From contig NZ_JAMFLY010000001.1 in the NCBI RefSeq assembly GCF_023502235.1, forward strand, positions 1,054,001-1,118,000: a stretch of 64,000 nt of DNA, given 5' to 3'. The DNA is from Flagellimonas myxillae (GTDB lineage: Bacteria; Bacteroidota; Bacteroidia; Flavobacteriales; Flavobacteriaceae). The notes below the pieces were generated by a model that saw only the letters and a list, made by a program, of their open reading frames with translations, searched no databases and was not told where the DNA came from. Made by a program: the position numbers and the translations under genes. Below, piece by piece: positions 51,090 to 61,655 of this stretch (positions are counted from its first letter, which is position 1; the number at the start of each line of letters is the position of its first letter).

Positions 51090-52418
51090 ATGCGTAAACT
51101 AGAACTGCATTGGCAGATCCTAATTGGAATGCTATTGGGTATCGTTTTTGGATTTGCCATGACCGGGTTGGACTGGGGCAAAGATTTTGTAACCGACTGG
51201 ATTCAACCCTTCGGAACCATTTTCGTTAAATTTCTAAAATTGATTGCGATTCCGTTGATCTTGGCCTCCTTGATCAAGGGAATTTCCGATTTAAAGGATA
51301 TTTCCAAATTCAAGAATATTGGTTTGCGTACCATTGCGATTTACATTGGAACCACCATTGTGGCGATTAGCATTGGGTTGATATTGGTGAACATATTACA
51401 ACCTGGGGATGGCATATCTGAAGAAACTGTTGCCAAATTGGAGCGTACCTATGCCACCGATCAGGGCGTCACCTCTAAATTGGCCCAAGCCACCCAGCAA
51501 AAAGAAAGTGGACCTTTAAAATTTTTGGAAGATATGGTGCCGGATAACGCCTTTAGCGCACTTTCAGATAATGGTAAAATGCTTCAGGTTATTGTCTTCA
51601 CCATCATGTTCGCAATTTCCATGCTATTGATAGGCGAAGAGAGGGCCAAACCCTTAAAGAACTTTTTTGATGCCCTAAACGATGTGGTGCTTAAGATGGT
51701 GGACCTAATTATGTTGATCGCTCCCTACGCAGTTTTCGCTCTTTTGGCAAGTGTGGTGGTTAGTTCAAATGACCCCGACTTATTATTGGCCCTATTAAAG
51801 TACGCCGGCGTAGTGGTTTTGGGGCTCCTGTTGATGATAGCATTTTACGTTGTTATAGTGTCCATCTATACCAAGAAAAATCCCATATGGTTTTTGAAGG
51901 AAATAAGCCCAGCCCAATTATTGGCTTTTTCCACCAGTTCCAGTGCTGCTACCCTTCCAGTTACCATGGAAAGGGTGGAGGAACATATTGGTGTTGACAA
52001 GGAGGTATCCAGTTTTGTATTACCCGTTGGAGCGACCATCAATATGGATGGAACCAGCTTGTATCAAGGCGTGGCAGCAGTATTTATAATGCAAGTCCTG
52101 TGGCCGGAAGGACTGGTTTTCTCCAACCAGTTGGCCATAATTCTAACAGCCTTGTTGGCATCCATCGGTTCGGCGGCCGTGCCAGGCGCAGGCATGGTAA
52201 TGTTGGTCATCGTTTTGGAGTCGATTGGATTTCCTGCGGATTTATATCCGGTGGCCCTCGCCCTCATTTTTGCAGTAGATAGGCCCTTGGATATGTGCAG
52301 GACCACGGTAAACGTTACCGGGGATGCAACGGTGTCCATGGTAGTGGCCAAATCAGTTGGAAAATTGGGTAAACCGGACGTCAAGGAATGGGATGACCAT
52401 TTGGATGAAGTAAAATAA
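51090..52418 (+). CDS. Dicarboxylate/amino acid:cation symporter (DAACS family)
   Basis: A 442-residue transporter of the GltP/GltPh type with eight transmembrane segments and two re-entrant loops. The first loop carries the serine-rich AFSTSSSAATLP, helix 7 has the cation-binding GATINMDGTSLYQGVAAVF, and the last region has RPLDMCRTTVNVTGDA, with the Arg/Asp pair that selects acidic amino acids. It imports glutamate, aspartate or C4-dicarboxylates with Na+ or H+. The next gene, a GshB-like ligase, starts 19 bp downstream, so co-transcription is likely. Confidence 0.93.
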   Translation: MRKLELHWQILIGMLLGIVFGFAMTGLDWGKDFVTDWIQPFGTIFVKFLKLIAIPLILASLIKGISDLKDISKFKNIGLRTIAIYIGTTIVAISIGLILVNILQPGDGISEETVAKLERTYATDQGVTSKLAQATQQKESGPLKFLEDMVPDNAFSALSDNGKMLQVIVFTIMFAISMLLIGEERAKPLKNFFDALNDVVLKMVDLIMLIAPYAVFALLASVVVSSNDPDLLLALLKYAGVVVLGLLLMIAFYVVIVSIYTKKNPIWFLKEISPAQLLAFSTSSSAATLPVTMERVEEHIGVDKEVSSFVLPVGATINMDGTSLYQGVAAVFIMQVLWPEGLVFSNQLAIILTALLASIGSAAVPGAGMVMLVIVLESIGFPADLYPVALALIFAVDRPLDMCRTTVNVTGDATVSMVVAKSVGKLGKPDVKEWDDHLDEVK

Positions 52419-52437
52419 ACCATCAAAATACAGCCCT

Positions 52438-53469
52438 ATGAATATCTGTTTTTTAATGTATCCCTGGGATGAGATAGATCCTGAGAACGATACCAGTTTG
52501 GCTTTGATTCATGAATGTGTAAAACGTAAACATGGGGTGGCGCTGTGCACCCCCGCAAATCTCACTATTAGGAATAGCGTTACCAGTGCTTTTTGCACGG
52601 TAATCAACCGGATGGATAAAGTGTCCAGTAATCTAAAAACATTTTATAAGCAGGCCTCAATCCGGGAAGAAATGCTTCCCCTGGCTGGTTTTGATGTCAT
52701 ATTTATGCGGGCCAATCCGCCTTTGGACCCCCTAATGTTGAACTTTTTGGATTCGGTGAAGGACGACGTCTTTATTGTCAATTCCCTTCAAGGTCTTCGC
52801 GAGGCCAACAACAAATTGTACACTGCGGCCTTTGGAGATAGCCACAGCAATATTATTCCCGCTACCCACGTGTCCAAAAACAAGAGATACTTGGTACAAC
52901 AGATAAAAGAGTCTCCCGCGGACAAGATGATTTTAAAACCACTGAACGGATTTGGTGGTTCGGGGGTAATCCTCATTGAGAAATCGGCAATGTCCAATAT
53001 AAAATCCCTGTTGGATTTTTATGTGACCAATTCCGATGGCACTTCCAACTATGTAATCCTTCAGGAATACATCGAAGGTGCAGATCAGGGCGATGTCCGG
53101 ATTTTGATCCTGAACGGGGAACCTATTGGCGCCATGCGGCGAATCCCTGGATCGGACGACCACCGATCTAATGTTTCCGCTGGCGGATCCGTCTCCAAAC
53201 ATACCTTGAGCAAAGAAGAAAAGGCCCTTTGCAAACAAATTGGACCCAAGCTTGTAAACGATGGACTTTACTTTGTAGGCATTGATGTGATTGGTGGAAA
53301 ATTGGTGGAGGTCAATGTGATGTCCCCAGGTGGTATAACCTATATGAACAAGGTGTACAAAACCAAGATCCAATGCAAGGTCATAGATTTTGTGGAAAGC
53401 AAGGTAGTGGACAAACTCAAGGCTTTTGACAGAAGGTCGAGATTGAGAAGTGAGGTCGAGAATGCATAA
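52438..53469 (+). CDS. Glutathione synthetase-like ATP-grasp ligase
   Basis: A 343-residue ATP-grasp enzyme with the order of GshB: FLMYPWDEIDPENDTSLALI, then FMRANPPLDPLML, NSLQGLREANNKLY, the ATP lysine strand KPLNGFGGSGV (near residue 163), DVRILILNGEPIGAMRRIP, and GGSVSKH followed by VGIDVIGGKLVEVNVMSPGG with metal-binding Glu and Asn. It joins an amino acid or amine to a carboxylate, glycine to gamma-glutamylcysteine in true GshB. No gshA is in the window. It overlaps the amidohydrolase gene by 8 bp, so the substrate may belong to a different pathway. Confidence 0.87.
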   Translation: MNICFLMYPWDEIDPENDTSLALIHECVKRKHGVALCTPANLTIRNSVTSAFCTVINRMDKVSSNLKTFYKQASIREEMLPLAGFDVIFMRANPPLDPLMLNFLDSVKDDVFIVNSLQGLREANNKLYTAAFGDSHSNIIPATHVSKNKRYLVQQIKESPADKMILKPLNGFGGSGVILIEKSAMSNIKSLLDFYVTNSDGTSNYVILQEYIEGADQGDVRILILNGEPIGAMRRIPGSDDHRSNVSAGGSVSKHTLSKEEKALCKQIGPKLVNDGLYFVGIDVIGGKLVEVNVMSPGGITYMNKVYKTKIQCKVIDFVESKVVDKLKAFDRRSRLRSEVENA

Positions 53470-54289
53470 GAGGTCCCTTGATGATATTATAGATTTGATT
53501 GGTAGCGGAAAACGATTTGAGGCCGTTTCCGATGACTATTCCTTTACCCTAAAGATTGATAAATATGTACCCTTTGTATGTGGGGCCGTACACGATGGGC
53601 ATCAATTCCGTAAGGAACTTTGGAACAATTGCCTGCACACGGAATACGAAAGATGGTACGAGGAAGACCCTTGCACCAAACAGATGGTACAAAGCTTTCC
53701 CATTGTGCTAGCGGGCTGTGATAGCCGATTTGAATACGATCTGAATCGGGACCCCGAAACCGCCATTTTTGATACGGCCTGGGGAAAGCAGCTCTGGAAA
53801 AAGCCTTTAAGCGAAACGGAAAAAAGCCTCAGTCTTTCCAAACATTCCAATTTCTACAAAGTGGTTCATGCCCTAATTGCCAAATTGGAGGCTGACTTCA
53901 CGGATGTAGTGGTCTTTGATATGCACAGTTATAACTGGAAACGTTGGGATAGGGAAGTTCCGGTTTGGAATCTGGGTACGAGCAATCTCGATATGGACCG
54001 CTATGGTAACCTTGTGGAAAGTTGGAGGGCAAAACTGGAATCCATTCAATTGCCCAATGGAATACAGACAACTTCCAAAATCAACGATACTTTCTATGGT
54101 AAAGGATATTTTTTAAAGTATATCACGGAAAACTTTGGAAATACCTTAGTTTTGGCGACCGAAATCTCCAAAATCTACTGTGATGAGCTTACGGGGATAA
54201 TTTTTCCCGAAGTGGTGAAGTCGGTAGAGGATCAACTTAAACTGTTGATTCCAGCTATGGTTAAGGAATTTGAAAATGCATCTGTATGA
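53462..54289 (+). CDS. N-formylglutamate amidohydrolase family protein
   Basis: A 275-residue zinc hydrolase from ATG 53462 (GTG 53450 is less likely). Family features are VPFVCGAVHDGHQF near residue 40, RFEYDLNR, and VVFDMHSYNWKRW near 155, which supply metal and catalytic residues, followed by GTSNLD. In histidine degradation HutG-like enzymes release glutamate from N-formylglutamate; no hut gene is nearby. It overlaps the GshB-like gene by 8 bp and the QEGLA gene by 4 bp, a tightly coupled trio. Confidence 0.86.
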   Translation: MHKRSLDDIIDLIGSGKRFEAVSDDYSFTLKIDKYVPFVCGAVHDGHQFRKELWNNCLHTEYERWYEEDPCTKQMVQSFPIVLAGCDSRFEYDLNRDPETAIFDTAWGKQLWKKPLSETEKSLSLSKHSNFYKVVHALIAKLEADFTDVVVFDMHSYNWKRWDREVPVWNLGTSNLDMDRYGNLVESWRAKLESIQLPNGIQTTSKINDTFYGKGYFLKYITENFGNTLVLATEISKIYCDELTGIIFPEVVKSVEDQLKLLIPAMVKEFENASV

Positions 54290-55458
54290 TTGGGACGAAA
54301 GAGATAACGAAGTTGGAAAAGGAGTACAGCAACCTTTTTGAAATCGATGCCAACTTGGATAGATTGGTCCGGCGTATTGAACTACTGAGTTATATCAATC
54401 CACTGAACATAGAAAAGGAAAAACACCGCTTTTTTGCCTCTAAGTTTACTGCTGAGCCCAATTTGAAATATCCCAAACTTAAGTTTGACCCCTATAAGCT
54501 GCACCGCTTGTTTTTTTCCCAACGTTTGGAACGCATTAAGGACGAACGGATCAGGCAGTTGTACCAGGAGGTAATCTATCATTATTCCAACATGATCCAG
54601 TGTATTGAGACCATTGGAAAAAGTAGAAAGTTCTATTACAATTCCCTGAGGGTCTATGGCACCCCGACCGAGCGTGATGTGCAAAACGCTCGGTATATTC
54701 TTCATTTTGAGGATGAACCGTCATCTTCGGATATGGATAAAGTGTATTCCGCTGAAGAAGCGCGGGCGTATTTTGAGGAGTTTTCCAAGCGGTACGATTT
54801 TCCGTTGAATATCAAGTATTCTACCCATATAGCGGCAGAAGCGATGGTCAGCAATAGCTCCCAGTCGCTATTGATTCGCAAGAATATAAAATTTAGCAAA
54901 AACCAACTACTCACCTTATCCAATCACGAAATTGGGGTGCATTTGGTGACGACTTTTAATGGGCTCCTGCAACCCTTGAAGATTTTTTCGAACGGGCTAC
55001 CCAAAAATGTGGAAACCCAGGAAGGATTGGCCGTATTCAGCGAATACATGGGCGGCGCCCTTACCTTAAAACGTTTAAAGGAACTTGCCTATAGAGTGTT
55101 GGCAGCCGATAGTTTGATCAAAGGATATTCCTTTGCCGACACTTTTGACCTGATCCACGGACAATACAAACTCAACCGTGATGAAGCTTTTGGAATCACG
55201 CTAAGAGCGCATAGGGGAGGAGGGTTCACCAAGGATCGCTTATATCTTAGTGGACTGCGTAAAATCTACAAACGCTACCAAAAGGAGGAAAGCTTGGATG
55301 TGCTGCTTTCGGGCAAAGTGGCCCTGGAAGATGAGAACATGATCCGATACCTTGGGAATTTGGGACTTGCACAGCCAATTTCACATAAATGTTTGTCCTT
55401 TCAACAAAAGTTGAATACCAATCCCATTTTGGATTTTATCCTGAATAATTTGAAGTAA
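54286..55458 (+). CDS. QEGLA-motif metallopeptidase-like protein (DUF1704/TIGR02421)
   Basis: A 390-residue protein of the family misleadingly called flavohemoglobin expression-modulating QEGLA proteins. It has a gluzincin-like site HEIGVH (H214, E215, H218) and the QEGLA motif with Glu246 as probable third zinc ligand. Eukaryotic relatives in the same superfamily (MATCAP) are tyrosine carboxypeptidases of tubulin, so a carboxypeptidase activity is plausible. No signal peptide; cytosolic. The start overlaps the preceding stop by 4 bp (ATGA). It ends the symporter/ligase/amidohydrolase operon. Confidence 0.87.
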   Translation: MIGTKEITKLEKEYSNLFEIDANLDRLVRRIELLSYINPLNIEKEKHRFFASKFTAEPNLKYPKLKFDPYKLHRLFFSQRLERIKDERIRQLYQEVIYHYSNMIQCIETIGKSRKFYYNSLRVYGTPTERDVQNARYILHFEDEPSSSDMDKVYSAEEARAYFEEFSKRYDFPLNIKYSTHIAAEAMVSNSSQSLLIRKNIKFSKNQLLTLSNHEIGVHLVTTFNGLLQPLKIFSNGLPKNVETQEGLAVFSEYMGGALTLKRLKELAYRVLAADSLIKGYSFADTFDLIHGQYKLNRDEAFGITLRAHRGGGFTKDRLYLSGLRKIYKRYQKEESLDVLLSGKVALEDENMIRYLGNLGLAQPISHKCLSFQQKLNTNPILDFILNNLK

Positions 55459-55554: not shown

Positions 55555-57396
55555 ATGCCACCAAAAATCACCCTTCTTTTTTTCTTCTTCTTTTGCTATT
55601 TATCAAATTCCCAAAATGCTCCAAATTTTGGGGACTTGGAAAGTCACAAATACTATGTGGGTCAACTGGAAAATTCCAAAGACCAAGACTTTCAGAGAAT
55701 CATAGGACTATACGACAACCATATTAGAAACCATCCTAGTGAAGTAACCGCTATGGTAGAGCGTTGTAGGTTTATTGGTAATTCATACTACGACGAGTAC
55801 GAGGGATACAATTTAAAGTTTGAGGAAACCCAAGATTGCATCGAGCAATTGTATGGGAAGTTTCCAATGCACCCCCAGGTTTTAATCTATAGGGCAGAGA
55901 ACCTATATGGAGAAGAAAAACTGGATGCCCTTCAAGAATCTTTGCGGTCAATGTCCAATGGCAAATGGAACTGGGTGAACATTGAAAAGGGTCTGATTTA
56001 TGAAATGCTTGGGGATTACTTTCGGTATACGGACCAAAAAGAATCCTTGAGATATTACCTCCAAGCACAAGATTTGAATAAAGATTTGGATGTATCCATT
56101 CCGTTGGCCGAATCCTATATGGAAACGGGCAACGATGAGCTGGCGAAAAATACAATTTTATCCCATTTAAATGGGGACACGATCACTTGGAGTTTAAATA
56201 CTAAAGCAGAAATGCTGTTGGAGCTTGGAGAAACAAGTAAGGCTCTTAAACTTTTTGACGAAGTCCGCCAGAAGGATTCAACCTTTATTGATAATTCTGA
56301 AATGGCCAAAGCTATGGTCAAACTTGAAAAGTATGGTTTGGCACGAGAATTTTTGGTTAAGGATACATCTGTAACATGGAACCGCTTGGTAAAATTGCAG
56401 GCATTGTTCAACCATGACCTGAAATACTCGGATTCTGGGATTACAATCCATACCTATAGGAACTTGCAAGAGGAAAATAGTTATGACGATTTTTTTGCCA
56501 TCAAACGATTACGGATTTTCTTAAAAGACCCATTTCTATCGTGGAATTTTACTGAATTGTTGCATCTATTCTTTTTGGCTGTATGTATTGCCATACTTTT
56601 TATTTTACCATATATCTGGATTTTACCCGTCTATAACGTCGGGCTTTATCTTAAAAAGAAATCAAGAATTGTTGTTCCCAAATTGAACTTTAATTGGGGT
56701 TTAAAACACTTCTGGATTTTAAGTTTCATTTACCTTCTTGCCCAATTCCTGCTTATGGTCTTCTTCTACTATGAGGAAAACATCAATGCGTTTTTTGAAG
56801 TAACCATGTCCTTTGAGGAGCTGGAAGAAGATGATGCTTCCTTGGCAAAGAGCATGCTCGCTTTCGTGTTTCTGATGACCTTGGGCACCTTGGCGGTCAT
56901 CAAAAAAAATGTATTAGGTCATCTTTACAAGACTAAAATAGGTCTCTGGGAATCCATAAAGTTAGGTGTCGCCTTTGTGATTTTTAATGTCATTTTTTTG
57001 AAGGTGTTACGAAGTTTTATTCCCTTGGATCCTACTGAGATTTCCCAGTTATTGTTTAACGCTACTCCGGAGATAATGGCGATACTCAAAACCTATGGAT
57101 TCGGAATTGCCGTTTTTGCAGTTGCGGTATTGGGCCCTATTTACGAAGAAGTGATTTTTAGAGGAGTCATCCTAGGTTCTGTTGAAAAGCATTTAGGCTT
57201 TATCACGGCGAATATTCTGCAGGCTTCCATGTTCGCCATAATTCATTTTAACCTTAGCCTTTTCCTGTACTATTTGGTTTTTGGGTTGATAACAGGATAT
57301 TACGTAAAGCGAACTGGTGGGCTAATAACCGGTATCGTTTTGCACGCCATTAATAATTTCTTTGTGTTGGTGCTGCTCAGTTTTCTAGTGAGATAA
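55555..57396 (+). CDS. CPBP intramembrane protease with exported TPR-like N-terminal domain
   Basis: A 613-residue fusion. Residues 1-19 are a signal peptide. Residues 35-310 are helical repeats with TPR-like periodicity (GLIYEMLGDYFRYTDQKESLRYYLQA), presumably periplasmic. From residue 335 there are about eight transmembrane helices ending in a CPBP (Abi, Rce1-like) domain with EEVIFRG (E531, E532, R536), His564 in AIIHFN and His597 in HAINNFF. Catalytic residues are intact. Rce1-type enzymes cut prenylated or other membrane substrates. The repeat domain may recognise the substrate. The 3' end overlaps the convergent lipoprotein gene by 20 bp. Confidence 0.85.
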   Translation: MPPKITLLFFFFFCYLSNSQNAPNFGDLESHKYYVGQLENSKDQDFQRIIGLYDNHIRNHPSEVTAMVERCRFIGNSYYDEYEGYNLKFEETQDCIEQLYGKFPMHPQVLIYRAENLYGEEKLDALQESLRSMSNGKWNWVNIEKGLIYEMLGDYFRYTDQKESLRYYLQAQDLNKDLDVSIPLAESYMETGNDELAKNTILSHLNGDTITWSLNTKAEMLLELGETSKALKLFDEVRQKDSTFIDNSEMAKAMVKLEKYGLAREFLVKDTSVTWNRLVKLQALFNHDLKYSDSGITIHTYRNLQEENSYDDFFAIKRLRIFLKDPFLSWNFTELLHLFFLAVCIAILFILPYIWILPVYNVGLYLKKKSRIVVPKLNFNWGLKHFWILSFIYLLAQFLLMVFFYYEENINAFFEVTMSFEELEEDDASLAKSMLAFVFLMTLGTLAVIKKNVLGHLYKTKIGLWESIKLGVAFVIFNVIFLKVLRSFIPLDPTEISQLLFNATPEIMAILKTYGFGIAVFAVAVLGPIYEEVIFRGVILGSVEKHLGFITANILQASMFAIIHFNLSLFLYYLVFGLITGYYVKRTGGLITGIVLHAINNFFVLVLLSFLVR

Positions 57397-58073: not shown

Positions 58074-61000
58074 ATGAAAGGCAATAATTTGGTCTTTAAG
58101 GCTGTATTATTATCTATAATTCTTATTTCAATTCCAATATTACCGATTAATGGTGGGGCACATTGGGTGCTGGACTTTTTTGGAAAATTTCACCCTTTGG
58201 TAGTACATCTACCCATAGGTGCATTGTTATGCCTGTTTATACTGGAAATAATAGTTTCCAAGACGCACATGGTCCACATTCGGGGTGCAGTGCTCAAGTT
58301 TATTGTGGTAACGGCCATCCCTGCTGTATTGGCAGGTACATTGTTGGCTAGCTCCGGAAGTTACGGAAGTGATGTTTTCAACCTTCACAAATGGTTCGGA
58401 GTGGCAACGGCATTGTTGAGTATTTGGTTGTACGTAATCCATAAGAAAGACCTTTCAAAAAAACTTGGACGATTTTCTACCTATCAATGGACACTCTTTG
58501 TGAATGTGATATTACTCAGTATTGCCGGGCATTACGGAGGTTCCTTGACACATGGCTCAGATTATCTTACCAAAAACCTTCCGCAAGAGGTGCGTTCCTT
58601 TTTTGGGGATGACCCTTATGCCTTAAAGGGCTTGGTGGCGATGAATAGTTCCAAGGTGGATAAAACCCTTGAGGCTTACAACTTTGAACAAGATATTCGA
58701 CCCGTGGTAGATAACTATTGCGTGCAATGCCATGGTCCAGAGGAGCAGAAGGCCGGATTGCGCTTGGATAGCATTAACGCCGATTTGGTGAAAGGACCAG
58801 ATGCCGCTACCTGGAGGGGAATGCTGGATATGATCAATAGTGGAGAGATGCCACCGGAAGAGGAGGAGCAATTAACGGATGAGGAACGTCGCATGCTAGT
58901 GGACTGGATAACTGCATCCGTGCAGCATGCCATCAAAATAAAAAAGTCTAGCCAAGCAGCAGTTATTCGAAGACTTACCAAAAAACAGTATACCAATTCC
59001 CTAAACAATTTGTTGGGTGTTTCCGTAGACTTTGGTGATGTATTGCCCGACGATGAAAAATCGGAAATGGGATTCAGCAACAATGGGCACGAGTTGCAGA
59101 CGTCGCCCTTGCACATCGAGTATTATAAACAAATTGCCAGAGAGGCTTTGGATAAGGCCATTGTTGCAGAGGATAAACCAAAATCGACCCATTACAAAAT
59201 CAGGTTTGGTAAGGGCATAGGAGAGGAGCTACCCGCAGCTATGATAGGTGGGTATCAAAGTGCTCCCATAAACTCCGATGATTTCATTGTGGACATTTTG
59301 GATGAAAATGGAATGCCGATACAGCCCAAGGACAGTGTTGAGGAGGCTTATTATACCGAGGTCAAAAAGAATGTTGGGGTTGGAATGCGGGGTTCCCATG
59401 CCGATCGCTACGAAGTAGTGGAAGATGGTGTTATCCTGTATTCAGCATTACCACATAAGGAAGTTAGTCCAAAGTCTTGGCAGGGTCCATCCCCTAATCT
59501 TAAACTCTTGGTCAAGGATTATTTTCCGATGGATGGAGATTTTGAATTTCGGGTGAAGGCTTCCAAAGGATATCAGGAGCACGTGAAAAAAGAAGGATTG
59601 ATCAGCCTTCGTAGACCCATCCCGGCAGAAGCCATGGAATCTACTATTGCCTTGGCGGGCCGTAGGTTTGAAAACAAGAAAAACCTGGTACAGAAAGGCA
59701 TGTACCTTATCTCCGAGGATTTGACGAACTACAGCTATGCCAAAACCAGCTTTGTGGCACCTAAAACGGGATACTATCAATTGGATTTCACCCACCCATA
59801 TGCCGCTCAAGATGGAATGCCCTCCATAAATATCCGTTTGGACCAGTTCCGCTTGCAAGAGCGCCTACATTTAGAAAAACCTGAGGATGGAGGCTTGGAT
59901 ATGGTTACACCCCTTACCTTGGCTTATTTGGAAGAAGGCAAACACAACCTTGAAATTGGCGGACGCTTTTTTGTAGGTTTCGGGGAGGTTATTGTCACTC
60001 CATTCCCGGACGACCATCCGGTAGCGATTCAGTTGGACAGCGAGGAGGAAGAAAGCAAACGCAAATATGATTTGGCATCACCCATTATGCGGGTATTTGC
60101 TGGAACCCGTACGGATGACGGCATTGATTACAAGAATTTTGATGATTTCCGCAACGTTATTAATTCAGACCAACCCAGACAATATATTTTTTCCGGCAGA
60201 CTTGAGGATTTGCCAATTCCTGTGATCGATACCTTGGAAACCGAGATTTTGGCCAACATAATGGGAATGGGGGTTTGGAACGATTATCTGGTCAAGGATA
60301 ATAGGGATTCCGGGCCGCCGCTATTGGTTCACGAAATTGAGTTTGAGGCACCCTATCATCCCGTATGGCCACCCCAAAGTCACACTGAAATCTTTTTTGA
60401 TTCCCCAGATATAGCAGATAAGGAAAAGTATACCTCCCAGGTGCTGGCCAACTTTATGGAAAAAGCCTTCCGGAGACCTTTGGAAAAGGAAGAAGTGGAA
60501 ACCTATATGTCATTTTGGAGAGCAATTAAGGACGATTACGGCCGCTATGAAGATGGAGTTAAGGAGGTGCTGGTTGCCATACTTTGTTCCCCCAACTTCA
60601 TCTATTTGGCGGAACCCGAAAAAGGCACATCGGACGATGAGAGGGAATTCTTCCTGGCCTCCCGCTTGTCCTATTTTCTATGGGATTCCCCACCAGACCA
60701 GGAACTATTGGCCTTGGCGGACAGGGGTAAATTGCATCGAAAGAAAGAATTGAAAAAGCAGGTGCAGCGCATGCTTCAAGATGATAAGATTTGGGAAATG
60801 GTCCGCAATTTTTCAAAGGAATGGCTACGGTTGGACCGTCATGAAAGCATGAGCACCAATGTTAACGAATATGAAGATTACAGCCGATTCGTAAAACGTG
60901 ATATGGCAGAAGAAACCTATCATTTTGTCCATCATGTGCTTAATTGCAATATGTATCTCGGGAATCTGATAGAATCCGATTTTGCCATGTTGAACCAGAA

Positions 61001-61655
61001 TTTGGCTGAATTTTATGGGATTGATGGAGTGAAGGGCAACCATTTTAGACCCGTTGCCTTAGGTCCCGATTCCAAGAGGGGCGGATTACTGTCCCAAGGC
61101 TCTTTTTTAAGTGGTCATTCAGATGGGACCCAGGCACACGCCATCAAACGAGCGGTTTGGCTTCGTTCCCGTATTTTGGGGGACAGACCACCAGACCCGC
61201 CACCAAACGTTCCGGAATTGGACCCAGAGACTCCGGGTTTCGAAAAGTTGACGCTGAAAGAACAGTTGTTCTTACATAGAAACAAAGTGTCCTGTATGGA
61301 CTGTCATGCAAAAATTGACCCGTATGGTATCGTGTTTGAAAACTATAATGCGGTGGGACTTTTTCAGACCGTGGCAAACAATGGAAATCCTATTGATGTA
61401 AAGGCGGAACTTCCTGATGGTAAGGTAGTTGATGGAATTGACGAAATAAAAGCGTATATTTTAAATGAAAAAATAGACGACTTTACCCGATCCTTGGTTA
61501 AACATCTGTTTTCTTATGCAGTTGGTCGGGATGTAACCTTTGTGGATGAACCAGAAATTGAATCTATTGTGAGCAATATCCGTGAAGATGGATATCGTTT
61601 TCAATCGGTGTTTGAACATATTATTACAAGTAAATCGTTTATTGGTGATTTTTAA
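58074..61655 (+). CDS. Membrane-anchored PSCyt1/PSD-type cytochrome c protein (DUF2231, DUF1587, DUF1592, DUF1588, DUF1585)
   Basis: A 1193-residue multi-domain protein. Residues 5-165 carry about four transmembrane helices resembling DUF2231 (HPLVVHLPIGALL). A planctomycete-type cytochrome c domain follows with CVQCH (C216, C219, H220). Then DUF1587-like (RRLTKKQYTNSLNNLLGV, near 305), a beta-rich middle (about 400-680), DUF1595/1592-like (SRLSYFLWDSPPDQELL), DUF1588-like with a second heme-type motif CMDCH (C1074, C1077, H1078) and C-terminal DUF1585-like. These PSD proteins have no proven reaction. It is followed 10 bp later by its usual partner, a DUF1552 protein. Confidence 0.88.
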   Translation: MKGNNLVFKAVLLSIILISIPILPINGGAHWVLDFFGKFHPLVVHLPIGALLCLFILEIIVSKTHMVHIRGAVLKFIVVTAIPAVLAGTLLASSGSYGSDVFNLHKWFGVATALLSIWLYVIHKKDLSKKLGRFSTYQWTLFVNVILLSIAGHYGGSLTHGSDYLTKNLPQEVRSFFGDDPYALKGLVAMNSSKVDKTLEAYNFEQDIRPVVDNYCVQCHGPEEQKAGLRLDSINADLVKGPDAATWRGMLDMINSGEMPPEEEEQLTDEERRMLVDWITASVQHAIKIKKSSQAAVIRRLTKKQYTNSLNNLLGVSVDFGDVLPDDEKSEMGFSNNGHELQTSPLHIEYYKQIAREALDKAIVAEDKPKSTHYKIRFGKGIGEELPAAMIGGYQSAPINSDDFIVDILDENGMPIQPKDSVEEAYYTEVKKNVGVGMRGSHADRYEVVEDGVILYSALPHKEVSPKSWQGPSPNLKLLVKDYFPMDGDFEFRVKASKGYQEHVKKEGLISLRRPIPAEAMESTIALAGRRFENKKNLVQKGMYLISEDLTNYSYAKTSFVAPKTGYYQLDFTHPYAAQDGMPSINIRLDQFRLQERLHLEKPEDGGLDMVTPLTLAYLEEGKHNLEIGGRFFVGFGEVIVTPFPDDHPVAIQLDSEEEESKRKYDLASPIMRVFAGTRTDDGIDYKNFDDFRNVINSDQPRQYIFSGRLEDLPIPVIDTLETEILANIMGMGVWNDYLVKDNRDSGPPLLVHEIEFEAPYHPVWPPQSHTEIFFDSPDIADKEKYTSQVLANFMEKAFRRPLEKEEVETYMSFWRAIKDDYGRYEDGVKEVLVAILCSPNFIYLAEPEKGTSDDEREFFLASRLSYFLWDSPPDQELLALADRGKLHRKKELKKQVQRMLQDDKIWEMVRNFSKEWLRLDRHESMSTNVNEYEDYSRFVKRDMAEETYHFVHHVLNCNMYLGNLIESDFAMLNQNLAEFYGIDGVKGNHFRPVALGPDSKRGGLLSQGSFLSGHSDGTQAHAIKRAVWLRSRILGDRPPDPPPNVPELDPETPGFEKLTLKEQLFLHRNKVSCMDCHAKIDPYGIVFENYNAVGLFQTVANNGNPIDVKAELPDGKVVDGIDEIKAYILNEKIDDFTRSLVKHLFSYAVGRDVTFVDEPEIESIVSNIREDGYRFQSVFEHIITSKSFIGDF

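Follow-up and report, generated by a model that had tools for sequence, protein, structure and literature searches.

Closest Described Systems

The human MATCAP relatives of the peptidase described here, MATCAP1/TMCP1 and TMCP2 (KIAA0895L and KIAA0895; PF08014), remove C-terminal tyrosine and glutamate residues (PMC10499314). Foldseek matches the bacterial peptidase to their fold (E 9.6e-9; TM 0.61, normalized by query length), and both its HExxxH motif and the glutamate of its third-ligand EG segment align with those of the human enzymes, although identity in the structural alignment is ~19%. Its gene stands beside those of a ligase, a deacylase, and a symporter, and the host is not known to have tubulin.

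In the brain, the N-acetylaspartylglutamate (NAAG) cycle involves the RIMKL ligase, glutamate carboxypeptidase II, aspartoacylase, and EAAT, whose family is that of the SDF symporters. The set analysed here resembles this cycle, by analogy only, in its four matching activity classes, and an AstE/AspA-type deacylase replaces the FGase in three loci, but the ligase is of the GshB type rather than the RimK type, and the peptidase is a MATCAP rather than an M28 enzyme. Iyer et al. reportedly catalogued, in 2009, amidoligase–peptidase gene clusters in which an ATP-grasp ligase is encoded with peptidases.

Organization of the Locus

The window (the whole 64,000-nucleotide stretch of DNA analysed) comes from the marine bacterium Flagellimonas myxillae, and contains a set of four genes on the + strand. 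These genes encode an SDF-family symporter of 442 aa, likely to take up acidic amino acids (51090..52418; PF00375, 1.4e-123), a GshB-like ATP-grasp ligase of the PRK12458 subfamily, with 343 aa (52438..53469; PF02955, 7.1e-54; PF02951, 1e-24), an FGase-fold metal amidohydrolase of 275 aa, counted from the ATG at 53462 (53462..54289; PF05013, 1.7e-13), and a MATCAP/DUF1704 (TIGR02421 “QEGLA”) metallopeptidase of 390 aa (54286..55458; PF08014, 7e-107). The reading frames are intact and the successive spacings are +19, -8, and -4, as the initial annotation had reported, which leaves no room for the gene of a target protein inside the operon. The mechanical reading frame of the FGase runs from a GTG at 53450 to 54289, although the ATG at 53462 is the likelier start, given that 58 of 59 homologous loci show the same -8 overlap of the ligase and FGase genes that this start gives. 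The earlier statement that no gshA, hut, or flavohemoglobin gene lies nearby agrees with the scan of nine genes between 46645 and 61655, which found no gshA, hut, or globin gene.

The symporter matches PF00375 with 413 bits, which places it in the SDF domain family, while its best NCBIfam model is GltP, at 248 bits, under the cut-off of 638. The TM8 signature of the acidic amino acid carriers of this family, VDRPLDMCRTTVN, begins at residue 396 (52275..52313, + strand), and its pattern, D..RT..N, presumably has the meaning assigned to these residues in GltPh. An SDF match is present in 78 of the 79 related Flavobacteriaceae loci, and a VDRPLDMCRTTVN-type pattern in 76 of these 78, the exceptions being a fragment at a contig end (L095) and a gene with an internal stop (L099). 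The adjoining acidic amino acid transporter noted at the outset is thus, to judge from this signature, a likely carrier of acidic amino acids.

The Ligase and the Glutathione Label

The ligase passes the NF009110/PRK12458 model (469.6 bits; cut-off 408) and the PRK05246 glutathione synthase model (283.7 against 272), while it falls below the cut-off of TIGR01380 (236.8 against 299.05). Of the other type-A ligases, L150 and L131 were also scored against PRK05246, and both pass. It has both of the GSH-S domains of GshB, and 25 residues are invariant between it and four GshBs taken as canonical (two annotated as GshB and two unannotated). It differs from GshB in its PRK12458 membership, in its failure to reach TIGR01380, and in a segment near the C-terminus, where the alignment places SPGG (53323..53334, + strand) in the position of the canonical SPT(C/G)IRE, so that the window protein reads SPGGITYM. 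The IRE is missing from all 20 of the aligned PRK12458 sequences and present in the four GshBs.

One reading of the locus is that the ligase extends gamma-Glu-Cys, or an analogue made elsewhere or imported, by glycine or a different amino acid to form glutathione or a similar thiol tripeptide, which the FGase and the MATCAP would then degrade. The PRK05246 match and the invariant residues are consistent with this proposal, as is the presence of PF04107, a gshA family, in five of the 18 Bacteroidota genomes that bear a PRK12458 ligase. The genes of 3-mercaptopyruvate-sulfurtransferase-like rhodaneses, found between the ligase and the FGase in four loci (L096, L131, L141, and L142), also speak for it, in that they could point to thiol chemistry rather than to the acidic amino acid conjugate preferred below. 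The authors of a study of Photobacterium damselae also interpret their gene as a glutathione synthetase (PMC10308900). The absence of the IRE argues against this, however, as do the 13 genomes, out of the 18, in which searches with working controls gave no match to PF04107 or PF04262, and the occurrence of BshC, of the bacillithiol pathway, in all 18. The proposal is considered unlikely.

The initial annotation had named a gshA gene elsewhere, together with a ligase proven to make only glutathione, as evidence against its own reading. Neither PF04107 nor PF04262 has a match in the window genome, and ordinary glutathione synthesis is judged unlikely in this organism because of this absence, which covers these two gshA families only, given that the model of the third, PF08886, matched no control genome. 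The four-gene set thus probably makes something other than glutathione, despite the label of the ligase. The argument that the standard names do not explain the set is upheld, with the glutathione label in doubt and the HutG model unmatched by the FGase.

Two Probable Enzymes of Amide Cleavage

The FGase matches PF05013 with 51.7 bits (cut-off 28.9), and no NCBIfam model matches it at E 0.001, including the HutG equivalog TIGR02017. Identity with HutG was rejected on the basis of this equivalog; the type-B relative in L132 scored 22.2 against the same model, where the cut-off is 278.75. The structure model (pLDDT 90.9) has its best PDB match in 2q7s (E 9.6e-12), and shares with the HutG structures (2q7s and 2odf, its two best matches) the fold and PF05013 membership, but its identity to the solved structures is 17–18% and its gene lies outside a histidine operon. 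Three motifs are conserved across 29 sequences, that is, HDGH (53591..53602, with H44, G46, and H47 invariant), DSRFEYDLNR (53720..53749, invariant), and DMHSYN (53918..53935, with D153 and H155–N158 invariant, and M154 nearly so), all on the + strand. The second and third are each found in 16/16 FGases and in 0/12 degenerate domains. Family membership suggests that the enzyme may hydrolyse N-acyl-glutamate.

The peptidase matches PF08014 with 358 bits (cut-off 27), and TIGR02421 with 313.1 bits, which is below the cut-off of 338.65, though nearly the whole model is covered. The relationship to MATCAP proposed for the DUF1704 product was borne out by the structure comparison, in which the model (pLDDT 92.8) adopts the MATCAP fold, with human MATCAP as its best PDB match (E 9.6e-9) and MATCAP chains as its top five. 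The metal-binding motif HEIGVH (54925..54942, + strand; H214, E215, G217, and H219) and the QEGLA motif (55018..55032, + strand; Q245, E246, and G247) were described as intact and are so, with the residues listed being invariant in 42 sequences. E246 is the likely third metal ligand, and in human MATCAP the segment aligned with QEGLA reads TEEGLA. By analogy with the human relatives (PMC10499314), the window enzyme is a putative carboxypeptidase. The FGase and the MATCAP are thus probably two metal enzymes that cut amide bonds.

The set might alternatively edit protein tails, with the ligase placing an amino acid, such as glutamate, on a protein C-terminus and the MATCAP stripping it off, in the manner of TTL/TTLL and MATCAP on tubulin, while the FGase handles the released product. 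The RimK-group ATP-grasp ligases modify the tail of a ribosomal protein, and the RimK family PF08443 does match the window ligase (1.5e-20). The nearest solved relatives of the peptidase also act on protein tails (PMC10499314). The ligase is nevertheless closest to GshB, which has a dipeptide substrate, and not to RimK (283.7 bits for PRK05246 against 92.3 for the RimK model), the operon has no space for a target gene, and neither the FGase nor AstE/AspA is given a clear part. Tail editing consequently appears improbable.

Conservation and Joint Loss in the Flavobacteriaceae

The neighbourhood is conserved well outside this strain, contrary to the outcome that would have told against the initial annotation. 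The ligase and the FGase are both present in 59 of the 79 Flavobacteriaceae loci and both absent from 20, with neither ever being found alone, and none of the 59 had a ligase, FGase, or MATCAP gene flagged as broken. Their joint loss represents about seven changes of state on the tree, and neither ortholog was found elsewhere in any of the 15 “absent” genomes searched, while both were recovered in all five controls.

In all 20 of the loci that lack the pair, the MATCAP gene remains next to the symporter and still encodes a complete metal motif. In these loci it is under purifying selection, with dN/dS values of 0.018–0.064 (8/9 pairs computable), which are rough, given that many of the synonymous distances exceed 1. 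This retention implies that the MATCAP has a job independent of this ligase; RimK-like ligases are a conceivable partner for it there. The protein also diverges faster where the pair has been lost, by 6.0 identity points under the aroC prediction (SE 1.0, uncorrected for kinship), which, together with its retention alongside the symporter, indicates that the genes are linked but separable. The Flavobacteriaceae thus keep or lose the ligase and the FGase as one core, while the MATCAP has a further role that does not depend on them. Of the earlier scheme of a writer, a trimmer, and an eraser, the grouping of the three enzymes as a conserved set holds, while the peptidase as the eraser is weakened by its persistence without the ligase.

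Distribution in Other Bacteria

The PRK12458 ligase is present in 18 of 395 Bacteroidota genomes, a count that leaves out weak, RimK-like matches to NF009110 (G045 and others). Unlike GshB, it is tied to the MATCAP family, given that all 18 genomes have a TIGR02421 peptidase, adjacent in each case, while only two others of the 395 have one (Fisher p 3e-29, uncorrected for kinship). A TIGR02421 match in one genome (G035) is doubtful, with 19.7 bits, no tblastn match, and an empty Pfam scan of the largest nearby reading frame.

The trio also turns up in the Alphaproteobacteria and in Photobacterium, in rearranged or fused form. Of 19 loci other than that of the window, 17 have all three members, and the gene order varies among them. 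An AstE/AspA-type deacylase adjoins the set in the three loci that lack the FGase; the two families have equivalent chemistry on N-acyl acidic amino acids. The FGase and the MATCAP are fused in L130 and in Vibrio sp. HDW18. The N-terminal part of the long MATCAP forms is a degenerate FGase domain (96.3% and E 1.5e-9 by hhalign), and not a novel domain. Among the viral contigs, 12 stretches fit a search pattern, with zero relatives among them.

These arrangements bear on the possibility that two unrelated functions share one transcript, that is, that the symporter and the MATCAP, on the one hand, and the ligase and the FGase, on the other, are united by gene order only. The joint persistence of the symporter and the MATCAP in the 20 loci without the pair, with the MATCAP under purifying selection, would fit this account. 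It is nevertheless very unlikely, as the ligase, the FGase (or AspA), and the MATCAP cluster outside the Flavobacteriaceae in other orders and without the symporter, and the divergence of the MATCAP accelerates once the pair is lost.

A Possible Module for an Acidic Amino Acid Conjugate

The preferred reading, which is held tentatively, at a little less than an even chance, is that the ligase, the FGase, and the MATCAP work as one module, dedicated to the synthesis and cleavage of a small conjugate in which an acidic amino acid is held by an amide bond, and not engaged in glutathione synthesis here. The conjugate would be an N-acyl- or peptidyl-glutamate or -aspartate. As regards the substrates, order, direction, and role that we infer, the symporter would import glutamate or aspartate, and the PRK12458 ligase would couple an amino acid, with ATP, to a carboxylate group on a small acceptor. 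The terminal residue would subsequently be taken off by the MATCAP-family enzyme, a metal carboxypeptidase, and the FGase would cleave the N-acyl bond of the leftover acyl-amino acid.

This reading is favoured by the joint loss of the ligase and the FGase, their -8 overlap, the adjacency of PRK12458 and TIGR02421, the fusions, and the AstE/AspA substitution, while its non-glutathione part is favoured by the genomes that match neither gshA family and by the presence of BshC in all 18. It is weakened by the PRK05246 match, by PF04107 in five genomes, and by the persistence of the MATCAP without the pair. Other observations that count against it are the restriction of the symporter linkage to the Flavobacteriaceae and its interruption by a stop in L099, the MATCAP found alone in L147, and the Vibrio sp. 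HDW18 fusion, for which no ligase was found within the 17 kb seen.

A further and rather unlikely elaboration is a “charge and release” cycle of amides, in which an N-acyl oligopeptide built by the GshB-type ligase would serve as a store of glutamate or aspartate, to be freed by the MATCAP together with the FGase or an aspartoacylase-type deacylase. This would be a counterpart of the NAAG cycle, and possibly the ancestral context of MATCAP as a tubulin-tail peptidase.

If the module reading is right, the “glutathione synthetase” annotation of PRK12458 proteins is misleading in bacteria that seemingly have no glutathione route, and the QEGLA family, named for flavohemoglobin regulation, would be peptidases whose metabolic partners are defined. 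The short set lends itself to assays, and could expose a new metabolite and a pre-tubulin role of the MATCAP-type enzymes.

The Families in the Literature

In the open-access literature searched, nothing was found that pairs DUF1704 or N-formylglutamate amidohydrolase with an ATP-grasp enzyme, which does not prove that the trio is unpublished, nor anything that joins N-formylglutamate amidohydrolase with glutathione synthetase. For DUF1704, only a malaria paper came up, and the many mentions of PF08014 in the malaria literature look like Plasmodium gene names. The only match for QEGLA or “flavohemoglobin expression-modulating” was the Photobacterium damselae study, in which adjacent genes named GshB and QEGLA are up 38- and 27.5-fold, respectively, at 1% versus 3% NaCl (PMC10308900). 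Two Vibrio vulnificus genes with consecutive tags, one of COG3930 and the other for a glutathione synthetase, are both listed as specific to clade 2 (PMC3091676).

The Four-Gene Locus and Its Conservation

The four-gene set is real and conserved, and is probably mislabelled by its annotation. Open reading frames and family matches bear out the positions first proposed for the four plus-strand genes, that is, an SDF symporter (51090-52418), a GshB-like ligase (PRK12458/NF009110; 52438-53469), an FGase (PF05013), which runs from an ATG at 53462 to 54289, and a MATCAP/DUF1704 metallopeptidase (54286-55458). The latter is the only TIGR02421 match in the genome, and is 93% identical to the F. algicola peptidase. 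The set is preceded by genes for an FAD/Fe-S oxidase and chorismate synthase (aroC), and is followed by those of a CPBP-type membrane protease, a small family-less protein, and a DUF1592-type cytochrome protein. The CPBP (Rce1-like) intramembrane protease domain forms the C-terminal part of a 613-aa protein (55555-57396), and the 1193-aa protein at 58074-61655 combines DUF1592/1588/1587/1585/1595 (PSD/PSCyt) and cytochrome domains, some of whose family names are planctomycete-derived, the genome here being that of a member of the Flavobacteriaceae.

The FGase model (pLDDT 90.9) is best matched by N-formylglutamate amidohydrolase structures (2q7s, 2odf), with lesser matches to M14 carboxypeptidases (weak) and succinylglutamate desuccinylase (E 0.3). 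The best match of the peptidase model (pLDDT 92.8) is human MATCAP, followed weakly by a Shewanella lipoprotein (3u24) and M32 carboxypeptidases, and its metal-site residues are the same in all 42 sequences compared. One study reports that both TMCPs are able to trim the tails of tubulin and to shorten chains of glutamate, and that the E281A mutant of human TMCP1 is inactive (PMC10499314).

Searched with the peptidase, genome contigs yielded 84 relatives, from which 79 distinct loci were retained, and all 79 were examined. The symporter is matched in 78 of these loci, at most 325 bp from the set in 77 and 3.3 kb away in L095; the contig of L033 starts within the ligase. In Arenibacter troitsensis (L099:6671-7945), a stop within the symporter match may reflect either gene disruption or an error in sequencing. 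Ligase and FGase are present together in 59 loci and absent together from 20, and none of the 79 carries one alone. They overlap by 8 bp in 58 of the 59 loci, with the sole exception of L096, where a rhodanese gene intervenes, and a 4-bp overlap joins FGase to peptidase in 50. Whole-genome searches of 15 of the 20 genomes without the pair recovered no FGase and no close ligase match (best identity at most 33%), and both genes were found in all five pair-bearing control genomes. The state of the pair has changed at least seven times on a tree of 80 peptidases, which was built by a quick method and has several long branches.

The Peptidase without Its Partners

The initial annotation cast ligase, FGase, and peptidase as a possible writer, trimmer, and eraser of a terminal amino acid. 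This scheme is partly supported, but the peptidase outlasts the pair in 20 loci, which counts against a simple writer-eraser system, given that an eraser without another job would be expected to be lost too. The metal motif is intact in all 20 of these peptidases, and their dN/dS is low (0.018-0.064 in the eight of nine comparisons that were computable), so the peptidase has a second role, independent of this ligase. The pair-less peptidases are also 6.0 identity points (SE 1.0) more divergent than aroC predicts (76 loci, 20 of them pair-less, by a statistic that ignores kinship), which indicates that the loss of the pair alters the constraints on the peptidase.

Distribution beyond the Family

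Among 395 Bacteroidota genomes, 20 match TIGR02421, including that of the window, and 17 exceed the NF009110/PRK12458 cut-off, with G002 slightly below it (396.5 vs. 408 bits); all 18 of these ligase-bearing genomes belong to the 20. Ligase, peptidase, and a deacylase occur together in 17 of the 19 loci surveyed outside the window. Seven of the 19 have ligase, FGase, and short peptidase, with an FGase-peptidase fusion in L130, and five have FGase, long peptidase, and a ligase of a second type, while three lack FGase and pair the long peptidase and ligase with an AstE/AspA-type deacylase instead, recognized by Pfam in L139 and L145 and by tblastn in L137, there on the opposite strand. Two hybrid loci (L131, L133) combine both ligases with only one FGase and one long peptidase, which raises the possibility that the ligases act on different substrates. 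The other two, L147 and L148, have no partners, and the L148 peptidase match is doubtful. The MATCAP gene of L147 (8934-10205; 424 aa) has no ligase, FGase, or symporter beside it in the 19 kb examined.

Two plasmid searches matched 127 records each, of which seven were examined. FGase, long peptidase, and ligase are found on plasmids of two Sinorhizobium meliloti strains, Aminobacter, and Mesorhizobium. Two Photobacterium strains carry the ligase and a fused FGase-peptidase, with a DUF413 gene 5' of the ligase and a divergent LysR regulator gene (L150:4649-6008, L151:4634-6005), and a plasmid of Vibrio sp. HDW18 has the fusion without the ligase. In the annotated HDW18 record, DUF413 and LysR genes likewise precede the fusion.

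None of the long peptidases scanned has a Pfam match in its N-terminal part, but the profile of this part aligns with FGase, with the catalytic stretch missing (hhalign 96.3%, E 1.5e-9). Two catalytic motif patterns that all 16 FGases share are absent from all 12 such domains. FGase and peptidase have thus repeatedly become one chain, the FGase half having decayed in the long forms.

The Ligase and Its Possible Product

The claim that the standard names fail to account for the set is supported. The ligase is unlikely to make glutathione. The score of the window ligase against the PRK05246 glutathione-synthase model (283.7) does clear the cut-off of 272, which the type-A ligases of L150 and L131 also exceed, and 25 residues are invariant in all 24 aligned proteins (20 PRK12458 and four GshB), but all 20 PRK12458 proteins lack the IRE of SPT(C/G)IRE, a segment of GshB, whereas this IRE is present in the four sequences treated as canonical GshBs (E. 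coli and Shewanella, so annotated; Shinella and Sinorhizobium, unannotated). The window ligase does not reach the cut-off of TIGR01380, nor do the four type-B ligases that were tested reach that of PRK05246. Synthesis of glutathione is also disfavored by gene content, as the gshA family PF04107 is found in five and PF04262 in none of the 18 ligase-bearing genomes, leaving 13, including that of the window, with neither, an argument whose scope is the Bacteroidota, the other carriers being Alphaproteobacteria and Vibrionaceae. The control genomes themselves gave no match in the search for a third family, PF08886. The bacillithiol enzyme BshC is present in all 18. The dN/dS of the ligase (0.005-0.016) is the lowest among the operon genes in seven of the eight computable comparisons (of 10); that of aroC is 0.018-0.053 (nine of 10).

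By family, the ligase would form an ATP-driven amide bond between an amino acid and a small carboxylate acceptor, and the FGase, or the AstE/AspA enzyme that replaces it, would hydrolyse an N-acyl acidic amino acid, as the replacement also suggests. The fold, motifs, and human relatives of the MATCAP protein suggest removal of a C-terminal residue, and the symporter may take up acidic amino acids, given that it has the TM8 signature of such carriers. In four loci (L096:6321-7118, L131:12331-13119, L141:6802-7638, L142:6770-7606), ligase and FGase are separated by a gene for a two-domain rhodanese similar to 3-mercaptopyruvate sulfurtransferase, which could hint at thiol chemistry.

One lead toward an osmotic role comes from the salt response of P. 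damselae, where GshB (RS17020) and QEGLA (RS17025), which have adjacent tags, are up 38.4-fold and 27.5-fold, respectively, at 1% vs. 3% NaCl (PMC10308900). Its authors interpret this GshB as glutathione synthetase (PMC10308900); by analogy with two other Photobacterium strains, it is presumably of the PRK12458 type.
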